64,000 nucleotides of DNA from Polytrichum commune (lineage: Eukaryota; Streptophyta; Polytrichopsida; Polytrichales; Polytrichaceae): contig OX485807.1 in NCBI GenBank assembly GCA_950295325.1, positions 2,668,501 through 2,732,500 of the forward strand, read 5' to 3'. This document shows positions 2,278 through 45,288 of the stretch, piece by piece. The first letter of the stretch is position 1. Each line of letters begins with the position of its first letter. The position numbers were made by a program, and so were the translations under genes. The notes under the pieces are model-generated. The model saw only the letters and a program-made list of their open reading frames with translations, was not told the DNA's origin and did not search any database.

Positions 2278-3357
2278 CGTTTACGAACGCACGTTCGTAA
2301 ACGTGAGTTGGTAGCACATGTACAATAGGTACATCGATATGATATGAGTTGTTTACGAACGTGCGTTCGTAAGTTGATCACAACCGTACTCGACATTGAG
2401 TTCCTTATAGACAGAACTAGGCACGAAAATTGTGTCGATGATATACGAACGTACGTTCGTATATCTACCTTCAAGACCCAGACGCGCATGAGTGCCCGTG
2501 TAACCGTTTTCTCCAACGGAACATCTGGTGATGGGATATTTACGAACGTGCGTTCGTAAATATCACCTGGGATTATTTTTCAAGAATCCAAAAAACATTC
2601 CTTAATTTATACACTTCAGTGCATTGGCCACGTTAACAATATGCAAGTTAAATACGAACGAGCGTTCGTATTTCTCACTACCGTTTGTGTCCGCGGAGAA
2701 TTATGTTAGTTGAATTTTACGAACGCACGTTCGTAAATACCACCTGTCCACCGTCCACGCATCCACCAACAGGCCTGTTGACGCAAGCATGTGTAGAGGA
2801 CTACACCGTGTTTATGATAGATACGAACGCTCGTTCGTATCTATGCAATCATGATTTAGTGATAGATTTCGACTGTCATTTTCCACTGGTTATTGGATAA
2901 CATGTTTTCCTGTAACGTGGCTATAGATACCTCTATTCGGACGTGTCCAATCATTTTTTCCAAACACTGTCGCGGCTGTGACATACAGATGATCGGTCGT
3001 TTGCATCCACCCCTAAGTTTCGGCTGGAACTTACGAACGATCGTTCGTAAACACTCGCCCATCAAATATGATGCTTACTGCATGTGGATAAAGTGGCAAG
3101 TATATTTTAGGTGCTCTTATAATATGTCCCATTTAGATTTTATTGTATATTGGGTTGATATTTTCGTCCGCGCGTTCGTGAATATATGTGCTTGTGTTGT
3201 CCCTTGGTGGTGGACAACCCTTCCAATGTTTTATTGGCGACTCGACCCAAAGCCCTTCACGGGTAATATATATCGGAATGGGGTTCCGTTGTGCAGGGAC
3301 GTCTGAGTCCCGTGTAGGATTTGCATGTCATCGAGCTGTTGTCGAACGCACGTTCGT
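2278..3357. promoter_or_regulatory. Array of ten ACGAACG-NN-CGTTCGT palindromes upstream of the DUF7869-like gene
   Basis: Exact 16-bp cores start at 2283, 2355, 2445, 2542, 2654, 2719, 2823 and 3033, and decayed cores at about 3165 and 3342. The 7-bp arms are invariant while the middle two bases vary (CA, TG, TA, TG, AG, CA, CT, AT). Flanks often extend the palindrome by TTTA/TAAA, but some use other complementary flanks. Spacing is irregular, 60-210 bp. A 7-2-7 layout with a free centre is what a dimeric DNA-binding protein would select. Spacers are not alignable with the array of copy 2 although the gene and the region behind it are. Confidence 0.85.
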
Positions 3358-3501
3358 CTTCATATGTGAGGTCCCGCAACGGTGTGGCGAGAGTTGTTTG
3401 TGATTTTTGAGCCATATATGTAGGCATATCTCGTATCCACTTTTGTATGCATTGCGGTGGTTGTTGTGTTGGTCATTTTATTGGTGGTTTGTTTAGGTTG
3501 G

Positions 3502-6500
3502 ATGGCGATGCACGTTGGATATAGTTCATTGGAGTTGTCCACAAAAGCTTCCTCTTCCGATGATGACTGTAAACTATCTTCGCCATCGGCGGGTAGTCAT
3601 GGCATGGCAAATGCCATGGGTGGGTTTGTGGATGCATCCTCCCACGAATCATTTGAAGTGCACGAACAATCTATACGTTCCGGGGATGACAATGATGACA
3701 TTCCGTTATGTGCCGGTTTCGGTAGGGAGCAATGGGTGGGCCTTGATGTTGTTCTTTTCAACGATGTTGGTGTCCCCGTGGCAGATGGCATATGTAGAAA
3801 CTCTGATCCCCGTGATTGTGTTGATGCCAACCCCCTTGGTCCCGATGATGTGGGTGTGTGCATCTTGAATTCTTTGCTTCCGCTTGACGTCCCGGTGACA
3901 TGGAAATTTTCCTTGCGTCGATGGCCTCTTTGTCGGGTTCTCCATGACGGAGTAAGCTTGTTGGACCATGAGCGCCGCCATAATCAAACGCAATTAGCTT
4001 TGTTGACCAAAATACGTCCTCGCAAAGGCCTACGCAGATATGATTCTAACTGTGTGCCTCGTGGAGATAAGGAACGTCGACGGGATCGCATATTGGGAGA
4101 CGAAACTATCCGTCTTGTGTCCGCCAAAGACTGTTGCGAGAGGAAATGTTGCCAATTTTTCCCGCGGGAGAAAATTAAGTCCCTACGTCAAGAGATGTGG
4201 CTTGCGGATTTCCGTATGAGATCGGCAAAGAAACTCGAGGTCCACAGAAATGTCCACATTGACACCCATGGGCGTAAGGTGGTCACACTTGAGAATGTGG
4301 AAGTGTGTTGTACTGCGTGGTATACCATCCACGCCGTGTCAAAGTCTGACTTTTATAGGTTTCAAAAATATTCATTGTTCGGTCGCCGCTCTCGATTTCA
4401 TGGCAATTCGGGCACAAAGAAACCTAGGGAGGCTACACTCCAAGCCTCCGCGACACTCTCCACCATCATAGTCCCATTGGCCGATGCAATGCCCCACAAG
4501 ACGAGGACATTGTCGTCAGGGGAGAAAGTTGTACAAATGGTATTGCCCACGGGTACAAAATGGAAGAACATATTAACGGACATCAATGAAGTGGGTCGCA
4601 TAGCGGGATGTGGGCCCATTTCTTTGTCCAAGTTGAGTGTGATTAAAAACCAACAGTTTGCCGAATACATTTTGAAGAGACCTGGGGACAAGTTCGCTAG
4701 GTGTACGACGTGTGAAAAATACAAAGGTCTTCGAGACACCCACCCCATAGGCACCGAATCCCACACTAGACACCAAGCAAAATATATTGAACATGTCAAC
4801 AACCAAGAGGCTCACCGTCAAGATTACTACAAGAACCGTGCTCTATCCATAATGAGGCCTACAGAGGTTCTAACAATCATCCATGATAAAATGGACCACG
4901 CCAAGACCGCATGCCCTTGTTATGCACGCAAAATAAAGGCCACGGATGGTCTCTTCAAGTTGCCCGTATCTGTCACAGGTTTGTATTGAATCACAAATAT
5001 GTATTCAAATTCTCTCAAATTTTACTGGGTGTGTTTGCCAAATGTCCAATTTCATACCTCCGTTTGGAGTTGTCGTTGTTATTGTTGTTGTTCAAGCATC
5101 GTTTGTTTTTTTTCGCAGGGATGATTGCCCACGGCCATGGAGACATAAAGTATGCCCATTATGGGTTGGATTTTTACCCTGGCGATGCTAACCACACAGT
5201 GGGTTCATTTGCAAAACTCTTGCGCGATCTGGAGAAGCCGCCGTTACATTCATCACGTGCACTTTTTGATGGTTGTGGAACGACACCCCTTTACGAAGCA
5301 GTGCTTGTGGGGAAGGAGGTTTGTATGTCGTCATTGCCAGAACCACCGGGAGAACCTATTTGTGCAAAACCATTGCCTCCAACTCTTCACGTTCAACTTG
5401 ATAATTGCGCGAAAGACAACAAATGTCGATACGTATTTTGTTTTTGGTCATTGCTCGTGGCGAAAGGAATCTTCAAGGAGGTGTTTGTGTCGTTTTTGAT
5501 GGTGGGACATACATACGACGACATTGATGCATCATTCAGACGGTGGAGCATGAAGTTGCATGAAGAAGATTTTCCAACCATACCTCTTCTTATGAAATCG
5601 TATATGGATTTGGACCATATGCCAGTAATTCCGCACTTGATTGAGGAAGTACCAGATTTCAAGGCCTTCATCAAGTCATACATGTTGAAGGGAGGGGACC
5701 GTTTGGTGGGGCATACCAAAGCACAACAATTCCGATTCTATATAAAGGATGATGGTCTCCCAGCCATGCAATTCAAGCTTTTGTGCACATCTCCTAATTG
5801 GGGACCGGATGATGGTATACTCGTATGGCGTCAAGACAATGATGGGAAATGTTTGCTCCCGGATGGGGATCCAAAGCCTTGCAAACCCGACCCCATGAGG
5901 AATGGGCCGGAAATCATCAAAGGCATATCCGGATTCATTGAATATTGGAAAGAGTTGTGTGAGGAGGACATCACTAGACATGTTAGAGATACTCGTGAAC
6001 CTTTGATTGCGTATTGGGATCGCATTCGCTCGGCCCTAATGACACTTGGTGGCGACACCCGTACAATTTTAACACAAGGATTTTGGCCACAAAGTCGTTT
6101 GACGGTTGTCGAGTCCGACACCATGGTTTTTAGCAATGGAGACGTTCGTGAAGAGTTCGCAATGGACGAGCATTACGTTGGCCCTGCCCGCAATCGACCG
6201 GCACCGTCGTTTCGTGTAGGTGTCGATTGCCATGAAGGTTATTTGGTCCTTGTACGAGCAGGGGATGAGGAACATCCCAAGCCAATTTGGTTGGTGAAAG
6301 CATTGTCTTCACCCAATTTTGTTCGAACTAGCCCCAACTTTCGTCAGATTGAGGTGGAATATTGTCGTCCAAGTACTAAAGACCAGAACGTGCTACGCAC
6401 TTATTTAGGTTGGGACACCAAAAAGAATTTTAAGTGGACAATGGACTCAGCGTACACACCGGTTTGGATAAACACGGACACTATACTTTGTGCTTGGAAG

Positions 6501-6638
6501 CCGCGTAAAGGTTCCAAAACAGAAACAATGACCATCCCCCAAAAACATATAGATTTTGCCAAAGACAACTTGGCACGTATTGCAGCTGCGGAAAATGACG
6601 CCGATAATGGATATGAAGCGGAAGACGGAGATGTGTAA
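3502..6638 (+). CDS. DUF7869-like candidate transposase, intact copy
   Basis: Two exons, 3502-4978 and 5119-6638. The 140-bp intron (GT at 4979, AG at 5118) splices in phase and gives about 998 residues. I chose the ATG at 3502 because both copies share it and align from there on; the frame is open further up but the two copies differ by an indel there. The N-terminal half has an acidic Ser-rich region, a Cys-rich segment (KDCCERKCCQFF) followed by LRQEMW, then CCTAWYTIHAVSKSDFYRF, and a later CTTC pair. The second half carries HDKMD, LDNCAKDNK (D587 by this numbering) and GHTYDDID (D626-D629), the diagnostic blocks of the DUF7869 family. I infer these acidic residues to be a DDE/RNase H-like triad, making this the likely transposase. 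It lies 400 bp from the element end and points outward. DUF7869 assignment is from recall of the family; the catalytic role is inference. Confidence 0.75.
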
Positions 6639-7003
6639 ACATAACATAGGTGGGAGTTCATGGCGAAAAACATGGACGCTTAGTAGACTTGGTTTTTAAT
6701 AGACTTCATGGACTTGTCACACTCCATTGTGGTATACGTTTGGGATGTGCCATCTAAATTCATAAGAGCCTTACTTATGGGATGCGCACCCCAAACTCTA
6801 TAATGACATAAACCATTTGTTTTTTTAGATTCGATTGTTATTTTCCACATGGAGCTCACGTTTGCATTTTAATTGACATTCTCTATTTTTAGAAATAAGA
6901 ATATTCTTTACGTGCAACTTTTTAAATCGTTATGTTCTTGATGTTCCCAATATTCCGTATGCCCACAATATTGGCATCCCAAACTATGGGCAGATTTTAT
7001 TTT
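6639..7003. other. 3' flank between DUF7869-like gene and element end
   Basis: AT-rich, no coding sequence. It is nearly identical, inverted, to 27916-28279 in copy 2, so it belongs to the element. Confidence 0.7.
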
Positions 7004-7041
7004 GAGACTTTCGAAAGTCTCCGATTAACGAATATAGTGTT
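7004..7041. repeat. Terminal inverted repeat of copy 1 with subterminal hairpin
   Basis: GAGACTTTCGAAAGTCTC (7004-7021) is a perfect 18-bp palindrome. It overlaps the terminal repeat that ends CGAATATAGTGTT at 7041. The same end appears at 27877 (inverted) and, more diverged, at 45677. Confidence 0.75.
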
Positions 7042-9506: not shown

Positions 9507-12500
9507 CTATGGTATGGACGTAACGCTTGTCACATGACAATTGTTCATAAGTCCTGCACTGCTCCACTTATTGCGATGCTCAGGAGTGGGTGCATCTGAG
9601 CTTCTTCTCATGGCAAAACCGTCTCGAGTTGTAGGATGTGAGTCTGGATTCACAGGAGTTGGAAAATGTGATCTTGGAAGTGGCATGTTTGCTGCACTCT
9701 GGAATTGACGGCGCGGAGATAAGGCACCACGTTGTTGGAGTTGGAAACCTGCCTCTTCTAGAGCCAAGATTTCCTTCATAGTTAAGTTTGTACCATTTTT
9801 CACAGGCCAGGTCATAGGAACAAATGGCCAACCTACCACAAAGGATTTCTTGGTCCCCTTCACACATCGATTAATGTCATCTGCACAAAACCAAAATTTT
9901 GTAGAAATAGTTCGATGAGTTTTGTACCCCTTCTTATCGCCAACATACGTAGGGGCAGGGGTGCCATGTGGACCTCGTCCTACTCTGGTATCGCATTTCT
10001 CATTAGTATGAGCACACATGGCCTGGCATTTCCGTGCGGATTTGCTTGAAAGACGGGCAATATGCCACTTCGAAGGATCGCAGTTGGTTTCCAAAACGGA
10101 GGTAGTGTGTTGGACGCCCGAGTCAGGTTTAGATAGAGCCTCCTCAATGCGTGCTTTAGTGGACCTGGTACCATCACGTGGAATAGAGTAATTCACTGTA
10201 TCCGACCGATGCGAATCATGACTTGATCCTGGTGGCAAATCTAACTTTCGTTTTGTGGACCCAAAAATCTCTGCGCCCTCAAGGCCTCCTTTCTTGGTCA
10301 ATAGATCTGCAGCCCCAGGGTAAGAGTTAACCGCCTCAGCTATTAGCTTAGGGTCTCCAGAGCGTTGTGCATGGCGTAAACGAAGTTCAGATTTGTCTGG
10401 TCCCTTTCCTCCCTTCCCCCCTTTCAACCAAAATCGGTAGCTTGTAATCTGCATGAAAGCACGAACGAGATCGTCCACCGTAGCCTCGTACAAACATGTC
10501 ATTGTGTTTCCGGACTGTTGCAGCCATCTGTTGTGGACAGTTTCCGCTAGATTGCAAGAAGGCATGTCCGCCCTCTCGTCAAGAGTGAGGTCCTGGAGAA
10601 ACCACATGCAAAGATGAGTAATGGCCTAACGATATGAATTACAGTGAAGGTTTAGTGTATTAAAACATGTGAAGTGATGCACAAACTTATAAGTTGCATA
10701 GAGCCGCCCCACTATCTGTAGCGAAAGTGCCAGAATGCCATCTAGTCATTTAGAGAACGCCTTCCATCCTCTGTTGTAGCACCAGATGAAAGCCACCAAC
10801 CCCGAATGACGTTATACTGCGCTTCTGCTTCTTCTTGAGACTTAGCATCCTTCCAGACTTTACACATAGCGATGTGCTGGTCTTGAAAACCCGGTAGAAT
10901 GTTTTTAGAGATGGCTCTTTGAAGGCACTTTGTCCAGTGAAACAAACATGTCCGCTCCCGGTTCTCCATGCATTTGTTGGGATCTCCGTTGCCATATACT
11001 TTGCGAACGGCATGCCAATTGGCTCCAGCACTATCAGCCATGAAGCCCTTGAAGTTTGTAGTCTCTAATCCATTCTTCCGCATAACTTCGTTCAAATGAA
11101 GCCAAAACAACTCTTGGGCTTCTGCATCCTCAGATTGCATATCACAAAGGGCAATGGTCATTACCTTACAGTACTTGCTGTCGTAGACATGGCATGCCAT
11201 AGTAGTCCAACTAGAAACACGCTTCACATGGTCGAACATGACCCAACAATCTTGAAGGTCACCGCCGGGCTGCATGCGCTTCACCAAGTCCACACCACTC
11301 CCTGGACGGTCCACGGACATCTTGAAAACAAATACCTTTCCCTTGTTTTGACCTAGAAATTGATTTTGGTGGATGAAAACAAAGTTGGAGTAGTCTTTGA
11401 GTTCGAGAATGTTATCCGTAACTCCTCTCCCCTGACGGAAGAATCTCTTTGTTCCAGATACAAAGTTGCGTAAGTTTGGTGAAGTAAGCGTCTCAAACTG
11501 GTCCATAACAACATCCATAGATGTTCCTTGAAGGTTGCTTCCGCCTGGAGTTGGACGAATCAAGGCATCCGCAAGATAGTTCTTACTTGCCGCCATGATG
11601 ATAAAAAAGTTCTTTGCATTAGGAGTCTTCTGGACTTCCTTGGCAACACAATCATACATAATGTCCATGGAATCTTGACATGTTCCTTGAGATACTGGAT
11701 GATTGTGACATCCTAAGTGGATTGCAGCACGAGTGACATCATTGTCATTGGACGACACATGGTAGATTCTAGCATCACATAATGCTAAGCAAATGGGAGG
11801 TGTTTGACAAACCTTACACGCTAATGTGGATTTCTCACTTGGACCCCTTCCAATTGAAAATGGTATCAAAGCCACTCCAGACCACTCTGTGCAGTTTACC
11901 TTGTCATTGTTCATGCAGATGTAATCACAACTCTGGTTTGGGCACTCAAGGTGTCCAGTACAAGAGGACCTACGATAGGTAAGGCCAAATTCATTCTTGA
12001 TATTAGTTGTCATGGTTTTGCACCACGTATGGCCATCGTATTGTTTGCTCATTCCATCCATACTACCTCCAAATTGAGTTGGAATTCCTTCAGGAAGAGG
12101 AGGCAACTCAAATATCTTCTCTCCATCATAAGTTGGAGGTAAATACTTGATTTGTTCGTGATCATTACTGTCAAAATCTATTCGTGAAAGCTCTGAACGA
12201 GAACCCTTTCTAGAGGCAATCTTTCTAATAGCAAATAAGATACTACGACTCTTCCTACAATTAGGATGAATAGGTGGATGTCCTGAAGAGAGTGACGGTG
12301 ACACACTTGAGCGACTATGGTGTTGAAATGGACGTGCGGATCCAAGCAAGCCACGTGACTGAAATGGATTACTTGAAATGTCACTTAGCTTGATCTCATT
12401 AACATTGTCATCGTCTGAATCACTCAATATATGTACATTTGATTCAGTCAGTTCGACTTTGACAGTAGCTAGACCAGGTACATGAACGGTTGATGTGGAA

Positions 12501-12796
12501 GTAGGAGGTGTCATGATTATAGTAGACCCGGACATTTGAACATCTGATAAACCATACACTTTGTAAGTACCACTTGTTAAATTCCAGACATAGCCCTCAT
12601 CAGTACTATCCTTGACCTGAAATATAGACTCACATAACTCTCCATTAGCATCAAACACTTCCTCTTCCACATAAATTGTACCAGATCTGAAACCAAACCT
12701 AAGACTAAGAAGTTGTTCATGGACAACTACCTTGTCGTCTGGGCCCAAAGACATCACAAATGGAACACCTCCAGCGTGGGATCTAAGAGAAGCCAT
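9507..12796 (-). pseudogene. GCM/WRKY-zinc MULE-type transposase, interrupted
   Basis: The first exon runs 12796 to about 10712 and the second from about 10607 to 9507. The intron of about 80-100 bp between them has splice sites I cannot fix. The N-terminal third is low-complexity and acidic. Next comes a Cys/His zinc module of the WRKY-GCM1 type: YDGHTWCK, then LECPNQSCDYIC, CKVC, and HLGCHNHPV. The MULE-like catalytic region follows with CWVMFDHVKRVSSW, GFMADSAGANWHAVRKVYG and CLFHWTKCLQRA. The second exon begins with DERADMPSCNLAETVHNRW, usual for this transposase family. Two in-frame TAG codons (10742-10744 and 10712-10714) stand where TGG would give NDWMAFWHFRYRW, so the copy is probably dead by two point mutations with no frameshift. 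It points away from the ParB-like gene at 18.9-23.2 kb and may be the transposase of that second giant element. Confidence 0.7.
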
Positions 12797-13538: not shown

Positions 13539-14310
13539 ATGAAGGAGGGCGAGGTTCCAAGCGCAGTAGTTCCAAGAGCTCTTAGATCATGTAGAGGTAG
13601 AGGAAGAAGACGAAGTAGCCATTTTACACTGCCAAAGCAACTGAAGGCTCAACGGAGACGACGGGAAAAAATGGCTCTTAATCAAATTGTTGAGGTTGAT
13701 AGCAACTCAAATGATACAAACCATTTGAACTTTAAGGAATTAGGGGATATTTGCAAGGTAAATATTCTCAATGGTTTATGGGTAGTCTGTTGAGGGTTCG
13801 CGTATTGACCAAGCTGTGTATTCATAGACTTAAACTATGGCTGAGAAAACTCGGAGCTTTTTGCGTAACTTGCATTTTTGTGACTCTGACTGTGATCACT
13901 AGGGTTTTTATCATTAGGGTTTTGAGCATTCGTTGAATGATTCGCAGGGTATTGCCTGTGAAGTTGGCGACCTAGGGGACGCATGCCCCGGAGATCAGCC
14001 AACAATTGAGGCTCAATCTCCCCTTGCCGAAGAGGTAGGTTTTAGTAATTAGTTTTGAATGCCTTATGTAATTATTTTTGGAGGAGAGGAGGCTTCGCCG
14101 GGTTTACACATCCCTCATAGTGTGCGGTCCGGCTCTAGAACAACCTACATGAAGCCTTGTCTCGGATCCGAGACAAGGGTGAAAGGGCAATTTTTTCTTG
14201 ATTCTTTTGAAAATCTCAGGCGAGGAATCTGATATTGAACCATCCAACCTGGCGAGAGTTTCAGTGTGCAGCTTCGAGGTTGGGTGGGATCCTAGAGAAG
14301 CATCTTCACA
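13539..14310 (+). CDS. Three-exon gene fragment of unknown function
   Basis: Three segments splice in the same phase: 13539-13757, 13948-14034 and 14220 to about 14310. Donors GTAAAT and GTAGGT and acceptors TTCGCAG and AATCTCAG are all standard. The product starts MKEGEVPSAVVPRAL and is rich in Arg (RGRGRRRS, QRRRREK), then acidic, then NHPTWREFQCAASRLGGIL. I do not recognise it. A basic region followed by an acidic one would fit a DNA-binding accessory protein, but this is a guess. The second intron carries a copy of the GGATCC-centred palindrome. The reading frame is lost where the rRNA-derived sequence begins nearby, so the gene is probably truncated. It could also be the beginning of the ParB-like gene that resumes at 18923. 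Confidence 0.45.
14155..14178. promoter_or_regulatory. GGATCC-centred palindrome, 24 bp, in an intron
   Basis: Perfect palindrome with core TTGTCTCGGATCCGAGACAA, extended by CC and GG. First of ten copies between 14155 and 20216. It sits in the intron between exons ending at 14034 and starting at 14220. Confidence 0.85.
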
Positions 14311-14715
14311 ATCTCAACTGCTATAGAGAAGCATCTTCACAATTACATTACACGGATTGTTCATTATTTTTTTTTGTAGACTCATTCCATTGCATACTTG
14401 CTCACAAATCACAAGTCTGCTTCTTCACCCGATACCCTAAACTGCGTCATTTGTGGGAAATGTGTGGTGAGTTGAGGGGGAGAGTGTCGATTTCGAGGTT
14501 GTGTGAGTGAGACCAGTGTGGTGAGTTTTAGCCTCTCCCCCACCTGGTCCCGGTCATCCATCCATCCATCCAGAAACCTTTTACCCCCTCCACCCTCTTC
14601 TCTTCTCCTTCCCGTGTCCGGAGAGGGAGTTTGCTTCTCCGCCATTGAAGTGGCATATGCTTTGGCCTTTCCCTCATTAGCCAGTTGCTCTGCCCTTTCC
14701 TGTAACACGATCTGT

Positions 14716-32974: not shown

Positions 32975-35115
32975 AAAGTTCCGGTATTTACGGCGGTGTA
33001 TGCGGTAGGTACAGCCTGTATTGTACCTGGGTGGTGTAGGGTTGGCGCACACGAAATGGCTTGAGCGCGTTCAGTGAGGTCTGTAGAGCGCACACTTGCA
33101 TGTGCCGCTGAAAAGAGCTTTGTTGTGGGGGGGAAAAGCTTTAAGTACTTCACCCCGCTGGTTCAAAATCCCTTGGATGCTCTTTAAAAAGCGGATTCCC
33201 GCCGCCTTCTTTGACCTAACAATCTCCCATTCCATCCATGCGGAATTATATAAATAGCACTGTCATGTATGGAACATGCCTTGCATGCACGCCAACATAT
33301 TGAAAATATATAAATCGGTTGCACACCTTAGTTGTGACCAAGGTCTCATCGAAATATATGTATATACATATATATATATCTATATCTATATATACACATA
33401 ATGTCTAAATATGGAGATGGTTAACATTGAATATTTAATGATTTGCGACTAAGGTATGAAGTCCAAGTTAATTGACAATTGATGCCTAATAAAGTTATGA
33501 ATGCCGAAGTCATAGATATATATATATATTTATACATATATACACATATACACACACACACACAATGAGGTCATAGTGGCTAAGAACATGTTGCGGATGC
33601 CCCTAAAATTATAGGTATCATATGTTTCACATCAAAAAATGACCGTAATATGGTCACCAAGTGCATGAATACAACTAAAAAATCGGGTTAATCCATAATG
33701 GCTTGCACTAGGGTAGATTGAGGACATTATGAACTAATTATACCTAATAATATATGTAAGTTAGGTCTTCTTTCAAATGGTATCTAGGTGTGAAAATAAG
33801 GAATTAAAATGGCATGAGTAGGAAGGATTAATCAATTTGTAATGCTGCATAGTATGATATTGTAATGATCATTGAGACTTGAAACCATACTAGCTACCGT
33901 AACGTTGAATCATAGTTACAATTATTATGTGTTTGACGTCCTATTAGAAATTGAATTTTCCTCCACTTGTTGTAAGGGCACGGATACACATTGGTTAAAT
34001 GTTTATTAGATCATTGGTGATATTTATAGTTGAATGCATTGTTCGATTGTTAGTTTAAGTTGACACATGATTAAATGAGTTGAGGTCCTATTCGAAATAG
34101 ACTTTTAGGGTTTGGGGAAATGCACTATTAATTTGGAATGGTGCATACAATAGTATGTACTTACAATTAATATATGTTTTGCAGCCTATGAGAAGGATGT
34201 GCATCATCATAGCTTAAAGTGTTGATATAAATTGAAGTCTTAAGACATGCATGTTATTATAATAAGATCGTGGATTGTGTGATGAAATTTCACTCAGAAC
34301 TATTAAGGTGAAAGAGGGAATATTTGAAATTTCACTTATCACCTAAACCAAAGTTTTATCTCAAATCTATTAATTTGGAATGTGAAAATGACAATTGGCA
34401 TCATTATCAATTATTATAGTTGTTATGAACGGAATTAAGCATTCTCCATCCAACCAACATTGGTAGACCAATTTGACCTGCCCTCAGACAACAACATGGC
34501 CACATATAAGAAAGGTTGGTAAGATAAAAAGATGCAGGGATGTAGGGTTTAGGGTTTGCGGTTAGGGTTTAGGGTTAGGGTTTCGGGGTAGGGTTTAGGG
34601 GTTTAGGGTTTGTGAAAGTTGTGTATGTGGTATTTGGGTTTAGGTTTTAGATTGTTACTAGGATACATTACACACACAAACAATATTGACTCCTCAAAAA
34701 CCTTTGTAATTGCAGTAACTTCATTCATCGCAAGCTCGTAGTTGATGCTAGCAAAATAGTTGACCATTCCAGAAATGCATTAGTTCAAGCTAACACCTAA
34801 TATTGGAACTTGAATTGACATCCTATCGTATAGCAACTCTGCGCAATCTCATATTATTATGAATTCCTTTTTGCATGTAATATTTATTTGAGGAACCATC
34901 GAATTAATTGAAAGATATCTAGCTCTTACATAAACTATATTTTAAAACACCATATACATATCTTTGGGGGTGGATTCTACATTGACAACCTAGGAAATGA
35001 CATGCATTGTTTATTACGAATTAACTGAGCATACTTTTCTAAAATATGTTTACAAGGAATCCAAATGTAGAGGTACTAAGGAAATAAAACGAGTAAAATT
35101 CATGTATTTGAACTA
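32975..35115. other. AT-rich interior of copy 2
   Basis: Inverted counterpart of about 70-2277, without the 326-bp insertion. No genes. TA-rich microsatellites lie at 33355-33400 and 33510-33560. The GC-richer block 33000-33230 is the best conserved part next to the array. Confidence 0.7.
34544..34616 (+). repeat. Interstitial telomere-like repeat (TTTAGGG)
   Basis: About nine degenerate TTAGGGTT/TTTAGGG units. Mirror of 938-976, with more units here. Confidence 0.85.
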
Positions 35116-36247
35116 AGCTTTTCAAGTTAATGCCCTAAACGCGTCCATTACATATAAATATATCAAAGCATGAGTATAACATGAAGGGTTCCAATATACA
35201 ACCATCTCCCATCTCCCATCCCATCCCATCCCTTCCCATCACCTCCCATACCATCCCATCCCATCTCCCTCCCAGCCCTAGCCAGTGGAGCTGTACCACG
35301 TGGCAGGTGCTGGGAAACCCTAGCGGCGCAGCTACCTCCCCGCGCCCCTTCCTCTTCTCCTCATTTGTCATTTTGAGGAGAGGAGGAGCGGAGCGCTTAG
35401 AGAGCGAAGCTCTTGCTTTTTTTAGTCTTGAAGTTTTAAATTAGTTTTGTTGCAAGTTTTGAGAGATTTTAGATTGAGAGCTTGTGTGAAAGCTTTTGAA
35501 TTTGTGAAAGCTTTCATTGTGAAAGCTTGTGAGTTTGTAAAAGCTTTCAGTGTGAGAGTTTGTGAGTTTCAAAAGCTTGAGAGCTTGAGTAGGAAAGCTT
35601 CAGAGTTTCGGATTGAGAGCTTGAGGGTGATCTTTAGAAGCTTGAGAGTTTAAGGAAGCTTGAGAGTTGAAGCTTGAGAGTTTAGGGAAGCTTCAGAAGT
35701 GAAGCTTGAGAGTTTAGGGAAGCTTGAGAGTTAAGGGTTTGCTTAAGAGTTCAGAAGCTTGAGAGCTACAAGCTTGTGAGTTTTGTGTACATGGGAGTAT
35801 ACTAGGGTTTGTATATAAGCTGTGAAGGCTTGAGGTCTGCATTAGAGAGTTAACTGAGTGTGCATTTGAAAGGCAATTGAGTGTGCAGTTGTGAGGATTT
35901 CTGGGATTTTCAGAAAGAGAAGAAGCAAGGTTTGAAGTGTGCAGCATTTCAATGTAATTTGTTATCCTTTCCAACTCCTCTCACATTCTGAAAATGTTGC
36001 TTCTTGAATTCAATTTGTTTTGTTACATGCAATGTGAATTATCACTTTCTTCTTCATGTTTCATTCTCAATCTCATTCTGCATCTCAATTGCGTTCTGAT
36101 TGAAGATTTGCATCATTCTGACCAAGATTTGCAGACATGGCTGCAAGCAGGTTGCTAATAAATGAGACATATATGTATTCGTATACGTATTCGTATATAT
36201 ACGAATACGTATATGTACGGACAGGGGATCCCAAAACCATCACATTT
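35116..36247. other. Centre of the element: simple repeats, no gene
   Basis: A CCCATCC-type microsatellite fills 35204-35275. From 35450 to 35800 there is an irregular minisatellite built on AAGCTTGAGAGTTT, in which one strand stays open by chance. At 36182-36213 lies a perfect 32-bp AT-rich palindrome (centre TATATATA). No ACGAACG palindrome occurs before 36248. Confidence 0.6.
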
Positions 36248-36873
36248 ACGAACGCTCGTTTGTAAATGGACATACACTGCATACCCACCTCCATTTACGA
36301 ACGCTCGTTCGTAAATGGACATACACTGCATACCGAACCTCCATTTACGAACGCGCGTTCGTAAATACGCACTCCACGTCCTTTGGAATGCTCTATATTT
36401 ACGAACGCACGTTCGTAAATATACACCAAATATCACTCAGATGGAACCTTAACTTTAATATGAACCTATCCGAATATCTAAAGAACAAATATAAATTTGC
36501 GAACACCAATAAAATAACTCACATGTACTTACGAAAACTAAATCAACCAAATGTCCGAAAAGATAGACCAAATGGACATACTTACGAACGCACGTTCGTA
36601 AACAAAACCAAATCTAGAAAACCTATATCTTTTACGAACGATCGTTCGTAAAAATAACCAAATATATTGCAAATACATTCATGACGAGTAGTCTCTTTGA
36701 TCTTCATATCTTTTACGAACGCTCGTTCGTAAACTCAATACTAAAAATTTATATTATCTTGCAACCCCTCATTTACGAACGAACGTTCGTAAATATAATT
36801 ACATCAATTGCAAAGACGCATTAACAATGCGTAGTATGTGGGATATGCATGTCATTTACGAACGTTCGTTCGT
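36248..36873. promoter_or_regulatory. Nine-copy ACGAACG palindrome array upstream of the ParB-like gene
   Basis: Cores start at 36248 (one mismatch), 36297, 36347, 36401, 36584, 36634, 36715, 36775 and 36858. Middle bases are CT, CT, CG, CA, CA, AT, CT, AA and TT. The last copy ends 31 bp before the acceptor-ATG at 36905, so the array lies in the promoter, leader or a 5' UTR intron. Confidence 0.85.
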
Positions 36874-37445
36874 AAAGTCACTAATTGTTTATATTCTGTT
36901 GCAGATGGCAAGATCAAGCAGAAGCGCCATTGAGATGTTCGCGGTGAAGGTCGATCGCCTCCCAGAGTCGGTGTTAGACAATAACGGCAACGACAACTAT
37001 GTCCCCAAGGAGGACTTCATGGGGGAGTGGACGGCACTGCCAGAGAAGATCGGGGACGGCCTCTTCTGCATGCGCTTCACCTACGAGCTGGAGACCAGAG
37101 TGGACCAGCCTGAACAGTGGGTTCAAATGAAGACGTGGGAGATAGAGTCCATAGAGGCCCAGGGGGAGTATGTAATTCTTGACATGAAGAACAAGAAGGA
37201 TCATATCAACCTCTTGTTGCATTTCCAGAAACATACCTTCTCCTACCAATACGCCACCAATAACGTAGTGGAAGATGCCAAACACTTCGACCTCGACGCA
37301 CTCTTCTCGAAGTATGCCTTGAGCCCATACTGGACGGCAAGGAAATTGATAGCCCTCGCCTTGAACATCTCGAAGTACAACAGTGTGGTCACCGAGGCCA
37401 ACAAGAAAAAGAAGAGCCCCAGGAAACCATCCACATCAGGGGCAG

Positions 37446-39041
37446 GTGTGAGCCCAAAAGGGTGCCCACATTTAGTCTTAGACCCTTGAAACGTTAGTTG
37501 ATGCACTTTGAAGTAGCATGTTACTTCACAAAAATATAAAAAGAATGAAATGTTAGTCTTAGAAGTACCATGTTGTAAGAGGCTAGGATGTGAGTTGTTA
37601 TTGTGTTTTTACCTTCGGAAGGATTTGAGTGAATGAGGATAGGTAAGGAGAACTTGGATTGAGTAGTTAGTGAGTAGGCTAGTACAAATGGATGGAGACA
37701 ACCAAAGTGACTCAAGAGGCAAGTGCATTCGAATTGGGATGAATGGAGGATCACATGGAGCGCACAAGTGGACCACCTCATCATGGCCACTTAATGGGGA
37801 AGGCCCAAGGAAGAATGCAAGGTGGAGGATAAGCAAATTCTCAAAGCACCAATCAAATCACGAGTTAAGCATCGTGGTTTGAATTAAGTGGTGAGCGACG
37901 ATTTGGGAAAGTAAGGGGAGAAAGTTATGGCGGCGGAAAGCGAAGGAGGCTAAGTTTGGGTTGAAGCATCCCAAGTTTGGTAAAGTGTGGTAGGTAGAAA
38001 GCCAAGGCTAGTTAAATGTTCGAATTAGGATCCTTGTTGATCATTTGAGGGAGGAAGGCTTAGAAGATAGGATTGGCGCCTACTAAGTAGGAGGAAATCT
38101 CAAGGGCTTATCGTGAGCCTTGAGGGTGCTCACCCCCTCAAGCTTACTATATAATCCCTCATTCTTCCCTCACTCATCCTCTCTTTCCTTTGTGCTCCAA
38201 GGCACCCCACGAGTTATAAGTGTGGGTGTGGGAAGCCATATTGGAGCACATGTGTGTGCTTAGTTTTTAGTTTGAGAGCCAAGGCTTGTTAGCCTTGAAG
38301 AGGGCTTGACCTCTTGGTAGAATTAGTGTTGACGTGAAGGATTTTAAAGTTAATTCATGATTCCAATTTGTGGTACTTTAAGTTCATGTTTTGAATACAC
38401 GTGGTTGCAAGTTCCATGTTTAAGAGTTGAGCACTTGATGTTGTGATGAGTGCAAAAATATACTTGTGTGGATTAGTTAGTCTTAGTGAAGTTAGGAAAT
38501 TCTCTCTCCCCCTCTCCTCTCTAGGATTTTAGGATTTTAGGATTAGAGAAGAATTGTGTGATTAGAAAGGGGTTGTTAGTAGAATTAGGGAAATTAGGTA
38601 GGAAGATTAGTTAAGGGCTTGAATAATTAGTGAGGTAGTTGGGGATTACAACTACAAAGTTGTGGGTTTATGAAGGAGCTGGGTTTGTTTAGTTAGAAAG
38701 TAAAAAGCTGGGTTTATGAAGGACCTGGGTTTGTTTAGTTAGAAGCTAAGGAGCTGGGTTCATGAAGGACCTGGGTTTATGAAGGACCTGGGTTTGTTTA
38801 GTTAGAAGCTAAGGAGCTGGGTTCATGAAGGAGCTGGGTTTATGAAGGAGCTGGGTTTGTTTAGTTAGAAGCTAAGAAGCTGGGTTTATGAAGGAGCTAG
38901 TTAAATCCAAGACCACTTGAAGGGTGAACCTTGCACTATGGACTCATCCAAGTCCAAATCCAATACCGCGGAGGAATGTGAGCCCAAACCCACTACTCGG
39001 ACTACGGACGCTTAAGGGTGGGGGGTTTGGCCTCACAGCAG
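37446..39041. other. Large first intron of the ParB-like gene, with inserted repeat DNA
   Basis: The intron is 1.6 kb while the others are 90-150 bp. It contains an LTR-like block with ACTATATAATCCC near 38150 and a minisatellite of about 45-48 bp units (GGAGCTGGGTTTATGAAGG) at 38660-38905. It has no palindrome of either family, so the bulk is probably a later insertion. Confidence 0.5.
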
Positions 39042-39804
39042 GAGGATCAAGAAGTGCACCCAGGCCTGTGCCTTCCGCGAGTAGGGCGACGGAGGGCCCC
39101 AGCAGGCACTGCACGCCATCCAAGAGGACAAGGGAAGAGATGGAGAAATCGGTAGTCACAAATATCGCGGAGGTGAGCTCGCCGGTATTGATGCCTACCC
39201 CCTTGAAAAAGGGCGAGAACCCAGACGCTGTGAAGGCCACCAGAATCCTTCGAGACTTCAACAACTACTCGAAGGATTGCTGGCCCATGGGACGCCACTT
39301 CACATTCAACGTGAACTGCTTCAAACGCGAGAAGTCCCCCAACAAGTGGGTGGTTCGGTCTCGCGAGAGCGGTGGTGTGAAGTGGCAGATCAACAATCTC
39401 ATGAACAACGTCAAGTGGGATAGGTAGACCGTCTGCGTCATGCCGAAGGGGCTGACATCCCGTCCGACGGAGAAGGACTGGCCACGGATCCAGATTGGAG
39501 AGTTCTGGATCATAGACGGCCAGCACAGCTTGGAGGCGTCCCAGATAATCCTCAAGGACGACAACTTCCAGCACGAGCTGAAGGCAGATTTGCGCTACTG
39601 GAAGGCGTTCCTGGTGTGGTCGGACGACTGGGAGAGGCTGCGGAAGATTTCCACCTTCCTCAACTCCGGCAACAAGATCAAGGCATTCGAGGCGTCGTGG
39701 GCTGCCAACATAGTGGCTGCAAGAGATATCTGGGTCGCCCACGGGTGCCCCCCCAAGGAAAGGGAGAATGCCAAGACCCCGTCTCCCCAATGGAAGGTGA
39801 GTTT

Positions 39805-39875
39805 ACGAACGTTCGTTCGTAAAGTTGGGCGCATTTCTAGTTCTTTTACATTCAAATTTACGAACGTGCGTTCGT
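39805..39875. promoter_or_regulatory. Two ACGAACG palindromes inside intron 2
   Basis: Cores at 39805-39820 (centre TT) and 39860-39875 (centre TG). The intron is only 115 bp (39797-39911). The first copy starts eight bases after the donor site. Confidence 0.85.
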
Positions 39876-41259
39876 ATTGTGTGCATCACTGACTTTTGTT
39901 TTTCTCTTCAGGCTTTTTGCGATGCGATGGTGGACAAGTTCTCCTCCATCGATATGAAGTCCACAACAACCAAGTCTGTCCTGGAGCTCAAGGGCGAGCT
40001 CCGCCTCATCTGCTGCAACAGGGACACTTGGGACTTGTGGACCCAGTTTTTTGATGCACATAGCTCGGGAGATCTTGTCAACCCCGACACCGAGGAAAAA
40101 TATAGCGCATAAAAGACCGGGGAGGCCCCTCCACTGCTGAGGGAGTTCTTTAGGTCCCTTCAAGGGTTGACGGAGTCCGAGTTGCAGAGGTGCGCGGTGC
40201 ATCTTCTTGGGAACACAGTGGGTAGAACCATACCCTACCCCAAGATATTTTTGAAGAGGCCAAGGCACAAGCCCGGCACGTATTCCATAAAGGAATGGTG
40301 CGACCACCGCAAGATGAAGACGGCGGCAATGAGGGAGTTGAGTGCCCTAATACCCGAGTACGTACTCTTCCTGGCCGACGGGGACGTGAATTGGGCCAGT
40401 TGGAAGATGTTGAAGGTCGACTACAACATCTCGGGAGCCTCAATGCGTTGCCTTGTCAAGGAGCACGCCTCCATTTTGAAGCAGAAGGGGAACAAAAGGA
40501 CCAAAAAAACCGAGACGGATCCCCAGGAGGTGGAGCAATACAAAAGGTTTTTGGCGCGGAAGAGATTGGCCACATTCGAGGGAGTGGCCAGATTTTGTGT
40601 GGTGACAGCCGGCGTAGAGAGAACAACTTTCTCTAAGTGGGACGGCACCATCAGCAGGTCCGAGGTTAGGGAGGACCGACGGGGGTGTCCATTTGCCTTG
40701 ATCGATTTCAGGGGGATCCCGGGTGCGTCGAGGCAGGGGGGGAAGGACATGCCATTCTACAACCCCTTCATGACCAAGTTCAAGGAGCCCAAGTCGCCGG
40801 ACATGAGGGAGCCTCACGTTTGGCTGTGGATAGTCGAGCAGGAGAAGCTCTCTACTGTAGTCGACCTGTACGAGAAGACGATCAAATTCGAGTACAGCAT
40901 CTTCCACAGCACTTACGTGCCCGCCAAGACGGAAGGGATCGTGGCCATCAACGAGGCTAGGGGAAACAAACAGGTGGGGGCGGTCAGCCTCGTCTTCTTG
41001 ACATACAACGCGCTTCGGAATGGGCGAGCCCCTGTCAGGGCGAATACTACGTTCAAGAAGATCTACAGCATCCCCCATCCCCCTCCCAAGGATCTGCTGC
41101 AGGAGACCTTGTACACTATCTTCCCGGCGCTGGAACTCAGGTTGGAGTTCTACGTCTCCGTGTTGCAAAGCGTGGCAATAAGCGGAGAGACTGTATACAA
41201 CGTCTGTGGAGGCAACAAATTCATGTACGCTGCAATGGTAAGCTCTCCAACTAATATTT

Positions 41260-41354
41260 ACGAACGCTCGTTCGTAAAGTTCACCTCAACTTGTTTGGGT
41301 TTCATTAAAACTTGCATTGTTTCTCGTCGTTGATGTTTACGAACGCACGTTCGT
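41260..41354. promoter_or_regulatory. Two ACGAACG palindromes inside intron 3
   Basis: Cores at 41260-41275 (CT) and 41339-41354 (CA) in the 146-bp intron 41238-41383, one near each end. Confidence 0.85.
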
Positions 41355-42363
41355 ATATTCTAACGTATTTTCTTGGATCTCAGATGCTGGGGCTGGTCGT
41401 CAACAACTTCATTGACGCCATCGACGAGGAGGACTTCCAGGTGCACAGGGCGAAGGCCTCCACGATGGACCTGGAGGACATATCCCTCCCAAGGACGGAC
41501 ATCAACATGCCCGTCGACGAAGGCATGCCCGCCATGGAGACGGACGACGACGAGCCCGCGCCCTCCTACAACGTCGAGGCGATCCTCCGATCCTTGGACG
41601 TCACTCCTCTCCGCATTTTGGCGCCGTCGGGAAATCCATCCGACGTGCAGGGGACTCCGGGTGGATACATGGGGTCGTCGGCGGGGACAACCCAAGATGT
41701 CCTCCCTGCGAGAACGTCTGGAGCGGAGGCATTCGACACTCCCGGGGGATGCTCGACATCCGTGTCGCCCAGGCCAGTCGTGGTTCCCAAGATGGAGAAC
41801 CTCGACCTTCTGGACCAACGGTCCCAACCGACGTTGGACCACTACCGCAACACGAGGCGGAGGATGAAGAAGACCCCCTACGTGGAGCTGCCTCCGGGGG
41901 CAATCATCGAGGTCTCCGATGAGGACGAGGGCGACATGGAGATCATGGTCGAGCTGGGGGTAGACTTTGACAAAAACAAGAGGGTCAAAGAGGAGGCATT
42001 GTCCGTCGCCGAGCTTAACGCCAAGCTCGAGCAAAAGATGAAGGAGGACATGGCGAAGGCGGCAGAGGAGAATGCCAAAAAAATGTTCGAAATTCAAGAA
42101 GAGCTGAGGCAGTCCAACGAGAAGACGGACGCCATCCTCGCCATGCTCCAGCGTATGCAGAACTTCGCGGCGCCCCCCCAGCCGGCCTACCCCTTCCCTG
42201 GAGGATACCCCTCCCAATCCCCTCCACCAGGCATGTTCCCCGGAGGGCCTTCCCGCCAGTAGGCGCCCCACCTTACGCCTATTGGCACTCCTCCGCCCCC
42301 AGAGGTTCCCTTGACCACCTCCCACGATGTTGTTGCGGCGGCCATCCAGGAGGACGAGGATTT

Positions 42364-42862
42364 ACGAACGCGCGTTCGTGAATCTTCAGGTCCTCCAGTC
42401 CTCACCCCTCCCCCTTCAAGGGTAGGACTGCCCTCAGACACCGATACGTCGTCTTTCACCATCGTCCCCAGGGTAGTAGACAGACATGGCGATGACTCTG
42501 CGCGACACACTGACATGATCATTGTGGAGGACACGCAGGGGAGCCCCAATGACGCACCAGGAGTGCAGGGGATGGACGTGGAAGAGACCCCTGCTACGTG
42601 GATGGAGGATGTCCGGATGGACGCGCTCGACCTGGGCGCCGAGGATGATAACGTGCTGCGCATCCAGCAAATGCAAGCGTCTCAACCGGAGCGTGAAGCA
42701 GAGGCCATGGAGACAGAGGCGGCTGCAGCTGTGGAGGTTACGAACGCACGTTCGTTAATCGTTGAGGAGGGACCTGCTGCTCGGTCCAGCGCCGCTGCCC
42801 CTCCCCCCGATGACGAGGTAACTCTCCTCTGAGAATACCATTTTTTACGAACGCGCGTTCGT
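42364..42862. promoter_or_regulatory. Three ACGAACG palindromes in exon 4 and intron 4
   Basis: Cores at 42364-42379 (CG) and 42740-42755 (CA) lie in the coding exon and read DLRTRVRE and VTNARS; the core at 42847-42862 (CG) lies in the last intron. Confidence 0.85.
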
Positions 42863-42942
42863 AACCTCTCTAACATCGCGATGTTTTTCTCTTCATCGAC
42901 ATCCAGTGGCCCGCGAGAGCCCTCTTCAGCGATCCCCCTTAG

Positions 42943-43434
42943 GGACGAACAGTTTTGTAGGACACGGCATCATTTTGCCTTAGGAAAATGTGATAGACTA
43001 TCACGTGAGAAATGTAAATATTCAACGGATTAATATATGAGCCTATGTTATCTGCATCACGTTGCTTCAAATTCTCTGCCCTCAACCCCTTCTCGTATAT
43101 TGTATATGTTGATGCGATTATGTTCATTCTTGCATACCACACCTCATTCGCGAATGCTCGTTCGTGAAAGGGTGCGACCCACTGTCCACCTCATTCGCGA
43201 GCGACCGCTCGTAAATGTACGTGTAGCCGCGCTCACGAACGAGCGCTTATAAATGATGCGCACCGCCCCCGCAGCCTTCATTCACAAACGCTCGTTCGCA
43301 AGTGTGCCCTTGAGCACATTTTCCTTGCACTCTCCTCACTTCCTCGTCTTTCCCCATAATGCATCGTCTTCATTTTCTACGCAAAATTTCATTATTGGAT
43401 CATAGCATTAAACTAGTCGAGTTGTTCATCACAG
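42943..43434. promoter_or_regulatory. Intergenic region with decayed palindromes
   Basis: Four degenerate copies near 43148, 43186, 43232 and 43283 keep CGNTCGT-like half sites. They lie upstream of the phosphatase-like gene as the arrays lie upstream of the other genes. Otherwise no feature. Confidence 0.6.
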
Positions 43435-44202
43435 GACCCCCCGGAGATAGGTCGCAACCCCTCGACCAGTGGACCTCCCACCCGGAACAAACCTTTCATC
43501 GTTTTTGACCTCAACGGGGTGTTGTGTCACACCCAACACATCCCAAGGGTCCCCACGCGTCCCTTCCGTCACCCCGACGAAAGGGACTACGACGGCGAGC
43601 TCGACACCCTCATTAACCGCAAGGCTGTCCGCGCCCGTCCCGGCTTGCGTGACTTCCTTCGCGAGGTGGTCGAGTTCGCTCACGTCATTGTGTGGAGCTC
43701 CATGGTCATGGAGAACACAGAGCCCATCATCCACTTCTTGTTCCGTGATCTCCCGAGCCCTTGCCTCGTCCTCGGCCAAGAGGACTGCGACGAGCTGCTC
43801 GACGAGAAAGGTCAACCGGTGCCCAAGTTTGGCGGTCAGGGCGGAGGACAACAGTTCCTCAAGGTCCTCCGCTCTAGACTCTAGCGAGGCGTCCCCCGTC
43901 TGCAAGGGACGCCGCACGGGTGGTGGTCGACTCCAGAGAACACCGTCCTCATCGACGACAGCCCCACCAAGAGTGTCTTGAACCCCCCGGGGAACGTCAT
44001 CTTCCCGGACACTTGGACCGGCGATAGGCAAGACACATTTTTGGTCGATAGGCTAGCCCCCTACCTTAGAAGGCTCGTGCTCCACGCCGGTAGCATCCCA
44101 TTTTTTGTTAGGTCCAACCCCTTCGGCAATGCGGCACTAAGCCCCCGCGATAATGTATTCAAGAGCATCATGAGGCTCGCCAAACTCAATAAATTGATTT
44201 GA
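43435..44202 (+). pseudogene. FCP1/SCP-like HAD phosphatase with one TAG
   Basis: The frame opens after an acceptor (TCATCACAG at 43434) and reads to TGA at 44202. KPFIVFDLNGVLCHT is the HAD motif I region of the FCP1/NIF branch; plants often have DLNG where the classic motif is DLDET. RARPGLRDFLREVVEFAHVI followed by VWSSM, and ENTVLIDDSPTKSVLNPPGN, are further blocks of the family, and the C-terminal FFVRSNPFGN also fits. Related plant enzymes dephosphorylate RNA polymerase II C-terminal domain or other proteins. One in-frame TAG (43882-43884) stands where TGG would fit. The true first exon is not identified; it could be spliced to the end of the ParB-like gene. Asn in motif I may mean weak or no catalysis. 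Confidence 0.7.
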
Positions 44203-44314
44203 AATGCCTCCATGTCTTTGCTTTGTATCATGTGGTTCACATTTACTAATGCTTGGTTCGTTTTTGGATGTCTTTTGTTGTTGTGATTGTTGTTGTTGTT
44301 GTTCTTGCCCATAG

Positions 44315-45288
44315 TCTACCCCCATATGCGACGCCCCCGTGGTCGACAGCCCTTCCCGTCCCCTCTCGCCCCCTGCATCCCCTTCCCGCGACGTCACGGA
44401 CTTCCAAATGCCATCCCTCTACCACTTCTCGGCGGTCGACGCGGCCTCGGCCGTGGAGTACTCCCGCGACGTTGGCATCGATGACGGCGTCGTCAACAAC
44501 CCGCCCCCAGCACTTGTCCCCCGCGCGTACGCCCCGTCGCCCTCCCCCCTCTCCAAGGAGAAACGGACGCTCGTTCGTTTGGGACACCTCTCGCCCTCGA
44601 GGGACGACGCCGTCGCTCGTCGCGGGCCGAGCCGGCGTCTCCGCATGGATTTTGCCCCCGCCGACTCCGTTCCTCCCCCCGCAACGTCCTCCGCGATCGT
44701 GGGCCCTCCACGCCTCGACTCACCCCCGCCATCCAACAGTGCATTAGTTCCATCGGCTCCCCTCGACACCCCCCTCGTTCCCACCGTTCCCCGCATGGAC
44801 GTCCCCAAAGCCAAGGTGCCCTCCTCAACCCTAAACCCCTTTCCCGCTTTTGCTTTCCTTGTCTTCCGTGTGCGTGCCGTTCTCTTTACGAGCGCCCATC
44901 CCAAACCGCCCTCATTATTCTCCCCACTCCATTCCTATTCTTATCTTCCTATGACGTTGTTTCGCAGGTGGCTACCCGCTCGCTTGGTGCCCGGCCCTCC
45001 TCCACGTCCTCCTTGGATAGGCATGCCCTCAAGGCCGCATCTTCCGAGTCCGATCGTTGTCTGGCCCTCCGGAGAAGCGCAAGACGTTCCTTTTCGCAAG
45101 CGCCCTCGTATTCTACTTATAATACCACCTCGTTAAATTCGGGAGCGCGTCCTGAAACATGCAAGAACGACACATATTCCTTTCCAGGCAACACACAAGG
45201 ATACAGTCGTGGGCCTGAGATTTTTAGAGCCATGGAGGCCGCCAAAAAAAAGGACTTAGCCGCAAAAAAAAATAGTGGGTCGGACTAG
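44315..45288 (+). CDS. Pro/Ser-rich protein, two exons, unknown function
   Basis: Exons 44315-44815 and 44968-45288 join in phase 0 (donor GTGCCC is weak, acceptor TTTCGCAG good) and give about 273 residues after an acceptor-like CCCATAG at 44314. The first exon is full of Pro, Ser and Ala (SPSRPLSPPASPSR) with a short folded-looking stretch (DFQMPSLYHFSAVDAASAVE). The second is basic and ends AAKKKDLAAKKNSGSD, which resembles a nuclear localisation tail. I recognise no family. A decayed palindrome (GACGCTCGTTCGTTT) is embedded near 44567. It may be the last exons of a longer transcript rather than a separate gene. Codon use is GC-rich like the neighbouring ParB-like gene. Confidence 0.45.

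Follow-up and report, generated by a model that had tools for sequence, protein, structure and literature searches.

Palindromic sites particular to each family of DUF7869 transposons in the moss Polytrichum commune

Introduction

A stretch of 64,000 nucleotides of contig OX485807.1 of Polytrichum commune (assembly GCA_950295325.1, positions 2,668,501 to 2,732,500; the window) holds two copies, A and B, of a transposon with CACTA ends and a transposase with a DUF7869 domain, and within both the palindrome ACGAACG-NN-CGTTCGT, here called a dyad, recurs many times. The locus raises the question of what so many exact copies of one site might serve and what might read them. A preliminary description, made from the letters of the window, took them for the footprint of a dimeric DNA-binding protein. 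The dyads are family-specific, almost exclusively of 2-base spacing, placed at matching positions in different families and conserved in their arms above their flanks. This specificity, together with clustering, the single spacing and the arm conservation, is as expected of such a footprint; binding by a dimer, the gene that encodes the binder and a role against silencing are inferences. The dyads may be docking sites for an accessory protein of each family's own, akin to TnpA and VANC and acting in autoregulation and anti-silencing, a reading to which we assign a probability of about one half.

Results

Exact dyads are confined to the two copies

Thirty exact dyads were counted in the window, matching the earlier estimate of about 30, against an expectation of 0.00 in 100 dinucleotide shuffles, which agrees with the claim that far less than one would arise by chance. 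At up to three mismatches there were 49 matches against 0.99 expected, some of them overlapping readings of one site. Copy A has eight exact sites (2283-3033) and copy B the other 22 (31729-42847); 7041-27879 and 45676-64000 have none, so that the proposed confinement to two element copies holds. The at least ten central dinucleotides described earlier were found to be ten (seven with both strands merged), but the fixed arm, TTTACGAACG, extends over about 10 bases rather than seven. Copy A was traced in 20 kb of additional DNA to the left of the window; both copies start with CACTATATTCG and finish with CGAATATAGTG, and together they contain 46 exact dyads (24 in A and 22 in B), 16 of those of copy A lying beyond the window's left edge. 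The elements, their genes and the dyad groups (unstranded) are as follows.

1-7039 and on to about -9902, minus strand: copy A, CACTA-ended element with DUF7869, cut by the window edge; inverted repeat with copy B, bounded by its terminal inverted repeat (TIR) ends; length 16,942 bp
27880-45675, plus strand: copy B, full length, ends CACTATATTCG...CGAATATAGTG, from TIR positions
3457-6638, plus strand: transposase gene of copy A, two open frames, the second with DUF7869 (PF25273, expectation value (E) 7.2e-39)
28280-31580, minus strand: transposase gene of copy B, from open frames and tblastn against family F502 (57-64% identity)
36905-41239, plus strand: right-hand gene of copy B, with N-terminal domain, IDGQHS domain and long second exon, and with in-frame stops, from open reading frames (ORFs) and alignments
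41384-42262, plus strand: third exon of that gene, from ORFs, tblastn and intron comparison
2283-3048: eight exact dyads of copy A, upstream of its transposase gene (pattern search)
31729-32974: seven exact dyads of copy B, some of them within a 177-bp tandem array, upstream of its transposase gene (pattern and repeat search)
36297-36873: eight exact dyads of copy B, upstream of the right-hand gene (pattern search)
39805-39875: two exact dyads in the first compared intron of that gene, the first, with a 10-base arm, beginning 5 bp past the inferred 5' splice site
41260-41354: two exact dyads in the second compared intron, the first beginning 19 bp past the inferred 5' splice site
42364-42862: three exact dyads of copy B, two within the ORF 42311-42832 and one just past it (pattern and ORF search)
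43150-44578: decayed dyads with one to three mismatches (mismatch search)

The left gene, encoding the DUF7869 protein, and the right-hand gene are divergent. The first ATG of the latter in copy B, at 36905, directly follows TTGCAG, and the array at 36297-36873 may therefore lie partly in a leader intron. Some 1.6 kb inside this gene (37447-39037) is missing from copy A and is probably an insertion in copy B.

The dyads had been regarded as a label of the whole element, an idea ruled out by their positions: the transposase gene of copy B has no exact dyad inside, and the exact sites nearest to the ends of this copy are 3.8 kb and 2.8 kb away, with one site of one mismatch 1.1 kb from the right end. 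The span first assigned to them, 2278-44570, also takes in a third element at about 7.1-23.5 kb, which is unrelated and has a dyad of its own. An explanation by CpG islands was rejected because the GGTGAGGCA arms of another family contain no CpG.

The arms are conserved above their surroundings

Ten orthologous dyads (of the 24 and 22) lie in alignable blocks of the two copies and are exact in at least one of them. Their arms are identical at 137 of 140 bases (98%) and their centres at 14 of 20, against 276 of 338 (82%) for flanks 4 to 25 bases out (arms versus flanks, Fisher p 2.5e-7), thereby giving the comparison of arms with centres that had been proposed; the requirement of exactness biases arm identity through the one exact copy only. 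Elsewhere the alignment is identical at 9,901 of 11,182 bases.

These figures bear on the idea that the dyads are by-products of amplification, through tandem duplication and self-templated repair of palindromes, with a sequence under no selection. Many dyads do lie in tandem arrays, and in some families there is a modest palindromic extension past the fixed arms, so that tandem duplication, named earlier as a possible refutation of the footprint, accounts for part of the copy number. It does not account for dyads in unrelated introns and exons, for the excess of arm over flank identity, for the nearly exclusive 2-base spacing or for the different sequences of different families at matching positions, and we regard this explanation as very improbable.

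The dyad is abundant in the genome and its spacing is strict

The genome-wide search for the 16-bp pattern that the preliminary description had suggested gave 5,602 exact sites in 408 Mb against four for the reversed pattern; the first 100 sites, those whose placement is known, are all on C1 and form five clusters there. Spacers of 3 to 12 bases combined gave 14 sites (reversed control 27) against the 5,602 at 2 bases, from which it follows that the 2-base centre is strict; spacers of 0 and 1 were absent for this arm in the fetched DNA, and a single 0-base spacing was seen in family F692. Element specificity holds in the DNA examined. The window-type right-hand exon has 109 matches among 1,095 candidates, and among the matches listed these cover two of the five clusters (C1:2241408 and C1:2466424), an overlap between two incomplete listings that is no evidence of absence elsewhere.

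A further stretch of C1 (L013, 638500-648499) has 33 window-type dyads, partly spaced at 34 bp, and the same left TIR. No transposase match was found in the 10 kb examined, and it is perhaps a non-autonomous relative.

Other families carry other dyads

A genome search with PF25273 gave 150 scored matches among 1,491 candidates. Scanning of the first eight DUF7869 loci for recurrent palindromes, with no sequence preset, revealed a recurrent dyad in six. In a second set of 14 loci, picked by score and open-frame length (the offset of one, L030, with a distant family in mind), the 4 kb upstream of the transposase were scanned; at least two copies of one dyad were present in 12, all from the six arms already found and with no new arm, making 18 of 22 loci overall. 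Besides ACGAACG the families use the arms TTTGGGTCG-NN-, CCACGGGTG-NN-, TTACGGACG-NN- and GGTGAGGCA-NN-, all with a 2-base centre.

L003/L004: GTTTGGGTCG-NN-CGACCCAAAC, 33 copies
L005/L006/L015: CCCACGGGTG-NN-CACCCGTGGG, 20 copies
L007/L016: CCCACGGGCG-NN-CGCCCGTGGG, 7 and 15 copies
L008/L014: TTTACGGACG-NN-CGTCCGTAAA, 12 copies
L009/L018 and L010: GGGTGAGGCA-NN-TGCCTCACCC

Genome counts for three of the other-family dyads were 9,731, 819 and 1,310, each against 0 for the reversed pattern. A table of nine arms by locus, which leaves out a second dyad of L034, is almost diagonal, nearly every element having one dyad type; the off-diagonal cases come from L008, L014 and L021, each of which has one ACGAACG site and an arm of its own that differs from it by one base. 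Nine of 11 control chunks of 4 kb were without a recurrent dyad. Of the two positive chunks, one (window 15.1-19.1 kb) is the third element and the other has two copies of an AT-rich palindrome within a 317-bp tandem repeat.

Binding sites of a host transcription factor, carried as promoters or enhancers, would explain arrays upstream of both genes. The dyads that occupy matching places differ, however, from family to family, and none of the nine tabulated arms occurs in the part of the window outside the transposons, so that this origin seems distinctly improbable.

Dyads recur at matching positions

Positions were compared in six copies (A and B, F502, F543, F692 and F689), which represent the five families whose right-hand gene was recognised; splice sites were inferred from protein alignments. 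All five families have dyads between the divergent genes and in the first compared intron of the right-hand gene; four of the five have them in the second compared intron, and four further downstream (none in F543). Family F692 has an additional single dyad within the transposase gene. In the order A, B, F502, F543, F692 and F689, the first dyad past the 5' splice site stands at +5, +5, +8, +18, +45 and +67 in the first intron and at +19, +19, +34, +46, +105 and +451 in the second, the last of these being already inside the next exon; a dyad thus starts no more than 105 bp past the inferred 5' splice site at 11 of 12 intron starts.

Such placement in five families, several of the sites being 5 to 46 bases past the splice site, would suit palindromes that act as hairpins in the transcript, for instance in control of splicing or termination. 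A paired-change test outside the arms points the same way in one family: the fourth base beyond the 7-base core in F502 is free but self-complementary in 32 of 35 cases against 13 expected, in contexts that are not independent, the signal elsewhere being weak or absent. On the other hand, the space between the divergent genes holds the largest arrays, each family keeps its arm sequence constant, more than a hairpin by itself requires, and the single centre size fits a dimer on DNA; we consider action as RNA unlikely.

The right-hand protein is the candidate reader

Transposase exons of the window family share 57-65% identity with those of F502, against 37% for the right-hand protein (copy A) and 23% for its first 180 residues (copy B), which suggests that the right-hand protein evolves faster than the transposase. 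This bears on recognition of the dyads by the DUF7869 transposase or a partner, joining the element's ends for excision. Transposase and dyads are paired in 18 of 22 DUF7869 loci, and according to PMC2613891 the TNPA sites of En/Spm serve excision. Against this, the exact dyads are internal, 2.8-3.8 kb from the ends of copy B, and the transposases are 57-65% identical between families whose dyads are wholly different; a transposase reader seems rather improbable.

The right-hand protein carries an [IV]-[DN]-G-Q-H motif, which we take to resemble ParB-like domains, a likeness to which profile searches gave no support. The name ParB-like used for it in the preliminary description was not borne out: Pfam gave no match to ParB up to E 10, the PDB gave no match below E 0.3, and the best E against the ParB-like proteins of PHROGs was 0.17, with two of four members. 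A PDB match to a cytochrome trimer at E 2.6e-5 was rejected as the sum of three weak repeats of E 10 each. A search of IMG/VR for relatives confirmed none, and structure prediction for two window proteins without homologues was unusable (mean predicted local distance difference test scores 35.5 and 31.5).

In F692 and F689 the right-hand gene opens with the residues MARTKQTARK, downstream of an in-frame stop and ahead of a GT donor (L006 from 7599, C5:45530598; L016 from 888, C3:11277387). The predicted splice would continue this with V-S-G-G or V-P-G-G, resembling the tail of histone H3. The exon has 50 genome copies at up to three mismatches against 0 in the reversed control: 33 read exactly MARTKQTARK, 14 have A7T (one also R2K) and three others have a single difference. 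K4 and K9 are intact in all 50 within the mismatch limit of the search, and position 7, where A7T is frequent, is therefore not strictly kept. A divergent DUF7869 match lies within 25 kb of 39 of the 50 exons, counted against 52 of the 150 listed matches. The window's own family lacks this start, which may possibly be a histone mimic or, as is also possible, a captured host fragment without function.

A third element and its relatives

The third, different transposon, at about 7.1-23.5 kb, has the dyad TTGTCTCGG-AT-CCGAGACAA; its ends were not found.

9507-12796, minus strand: transposase-like gene, without a Pfam name; a 52% identical relative in L034
14159-20217, unstranded: ten dyads GTCTCGG-AT-CCGAGAC, five exact and five with one mismatch (dyad scan)
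18923-19519, plus strand: DGNH-motif exon of the right-hand gene, divergent from the transposase-like gene (exon alignment)
21709-22660, plus strand: DNA-methyltransferase-like region of the right-hand gene, frame interrupted (profile and alignment)

In its 20-base form the dyad has 81 genome copies against 0 reversed, and among 12 other copies of the DGNH exon (89-96% identity) within reach of the dyad listing, 11 have a listed dyad within 2 kb. Two relatives at about 40%, L033 and L034, have ten TTTGGGTCG dyads each, the dyad of the DUF7869 family F502; L035 has three copies of GGTTCGG-GA-CCGAACC. Beside its TTTGGGTCG dyads L034 has, at 567-2160, eight copies of a second dyad, TGTGCGT-TA-ACGCACA.

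The end of the third-type protein, a C-terminal AdoMet-binding region, matches 5hek and 5hfj, both DNA adenine methyltransferases, at E 5e-5 in an alignment of two rows, of which one was joined manually; the L033 protein on its own gave E 0.18 with 5hek and E 0.021 with PF01555, under the Pfam cut-off. There is no recognisable DPPY-like catalytic motif, the matching stretch reading, by eye, DVPE or QFPD. Comparison by hhalign did not link the third-type with the DUF7869-type right-hand protein (P 0.39, E 0.39), the DGxH motif alone being aligned.

Three further observations were made in this element: a host-like fragment of large-subunit ribosomal RNA (RF02543) at 14000-15431, its match truncated by the limits of the searched stretch and scattered across the whole model; a second host-like fragment, an exon at 17453-17914 matching PF20258 (tRNA_Me_trans_C, E 6.7e-11); and two 205-bp copies, 100% identical, at 15338-15542 and 16235-16439, each with a third-element dyad (15461 and 16358).

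Discussion

A proposed mechanism

In the reading that we favour each transposon family would encode a sequence-specific accessory protein, most likely the fast-evolving right-hand gene product with its IDGQHS domain. A dimer, one subunit on each 10-base arm across the 2-base spacer, would bind the arrays between the divergent genes and just past the 5' splice sites of its own gene. The bound protein would control transcription of the element and shield it and its non-autonomous relatives from host silencing, as do TnpA in En/Spm and VANC in VANDAL elements. A change of protein specificity would be followed by joint replacement of the family's sites, giving every family a private address.

Several results weigh against this. 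Among the first eight DUF7869 loci L011 and L012 have no recurrent dyad, nor in the second set do L022, with one copy of a known arm, and L028, with none. Right-hand gene alignments gave no credible relative or significant DNA-binding family in the PDB and Pfam, and tblastn found no right-hand gene in 20 kb at each of two distant GGTGAGGCA loci. Family F502 and the third-type relatives have the dyad TTTGGGTCG in common, their right-hand proteins do not align, and one dyad therefore need not mean one reader. Finally, among one-mismatch dyads of all fetched DNA and the window, 21 of 36 are CpG transitions, 8 of 42 being expected under equal change rates, an excess consistent with methylation of decaying copies, which in itself we count in favour of the reading; against it, such decay also means that the dyads do not prevent methylation in old copies. 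Five further one-mismatch changes, A>G or T>C, turn one half into an ACGGACG-like sequence.

A more elaborate possibility is that a catalytically dead, element-encoded protein derived from ParB or a methyltransferase loads at parS-like dyads, that in one family group a copy of the H3 tail (ARTKQTARK) diverts the host's H3K4/H3K9 machinery, that only dyad-bearing DNA escapes silencing, and that one module of dyads and reader serves two unrelated transposon types. We hold this to be doubtful.

Comparison with known systems

The VANDAL elements of Arabidopsis belong to the Mutator superfamily. According to PMC5735166, the sequence bound by VANC21 is YAGTATTAY, in introns and in intergenic and terminal noncoding DNA; VANC motifs are dense, frequently in tandem repeats and different between related families, and VANC6 has another motif, present too in the unrelated AT9TSD1. 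The likeness to this system (PMC5735166, PMC10398659) lies in short element-specific motifs in introns and intergenic DNA, in tandem arrays and variable by family, found also in an unrelated transposon, and in an accessory protein that outpaces the transposase in divergence; family-specific motif arrays in noncoding parts including introns are present here. By contrast, VANC motifs as described there have 8-9 bases in one orientation, whereas the sites here are 22-base dyads that also occur in exons, and Pfam scans of right-hand-gene pieces found none of the VANC domains DUF1985 and DUF287.

TNPA of En/Spm, according to PMC2613891, attaches to subterminal repeats specific to its own element, which it also regulates, and the repeats of a soybean element can form palindromes. 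Shared with that system, so described, are CACTA ends, a transposase with a suspected accessory DNA-binding protein and element-specific repeats; CACTA-initial TIRs are present in copies A and B and in F502. Here, however, the sites are internal rather than subterminal, the accessory gene is separate and divergent, and DUF7869 has no Transposase_21 match: the DUF7869 frame of copy A matched DUF7869 only, with nothing for Transposase_21/tnp2, and the other scanned transposase frame of A and one of B had no Pfam match at E up to 1. As to subterminal repeats for an accessory protein, the exact dyads of copy B stand 2.8-3.8 kb from its ends, and other subterminal repeats were not searched for. En/Spm elements have a 3-bp target-site duplication; here no exact match of 2-8 bp directly flanks CACTA in A, B or F502; read by eye, with each end extended by one base, a TA duplication fits A and F502 and not B.

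With bacterial ParB-parS the elements share palindromic sites, protein loading being putative, and a DGxH motif resembling ParB-like domains, without profile support; they differ in the lack of a significant ParB profile match, in being eukaryotic transposons and in having many-copy sites specific to families. Certain fungal DNA transposons encoding TET/JBP (PMC12730594) reportedly bear a gene with a presumed effect on host DNA methylation, which would be a further likeness, although the Pfam scans made here reported no such domain.

The statement of the preliminary description that no plant transposon is known with such sites was therefore too strong, TnpA and VANC being functional precedents, albeit of other geometry. 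The dyad system would appear to work like VANC/VANDAL and TNPA; it is classed as a member of neither because it differs in dyad geometry, in its internal, splice-proximal and exonic sites and in its protein families. The strategy is known; what this case adds as a variant is its geometry, its positions, the switch of dyad between families and the H3-like beginning. The literature searched held no paper on DUF7869, and, judged from titles and abstract openings, no such system in work on moss ParB or palindromes, ParB with adenine methylation and transposons, bryophyte CACTA elements, transposon histone mimics or palindromic anti-silencing.

The related transposons form a natural series in which the address switches completely by family while geometry and position stay constant; with so many copies, a single genome could show how a DNA-binding protein and its sites co-evolve. 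This would extend sequence-specific anti-silencing beyond VANDALs and would supply different 22-base dyads with candidate readers for targeting the epigenome. Should the H3-like N-terminus prove a mimic, it would be a transposon turning a histone tail against its host.

A phosphatase-like gene near the right end

One further open frame of copy B lies downstream of the right-hand gene.

43519-43884, plus strand: NIF-like open frame (HAD, CTD-phosphatase type; PF03031, E 6.7e-6)

A gene like NIF and CTD phosphatases is found near the right end in two families (window 43519-43884 and L004 4700-5395). It starts DLNGVL, the usual start of the motif being DxDx(T/V).

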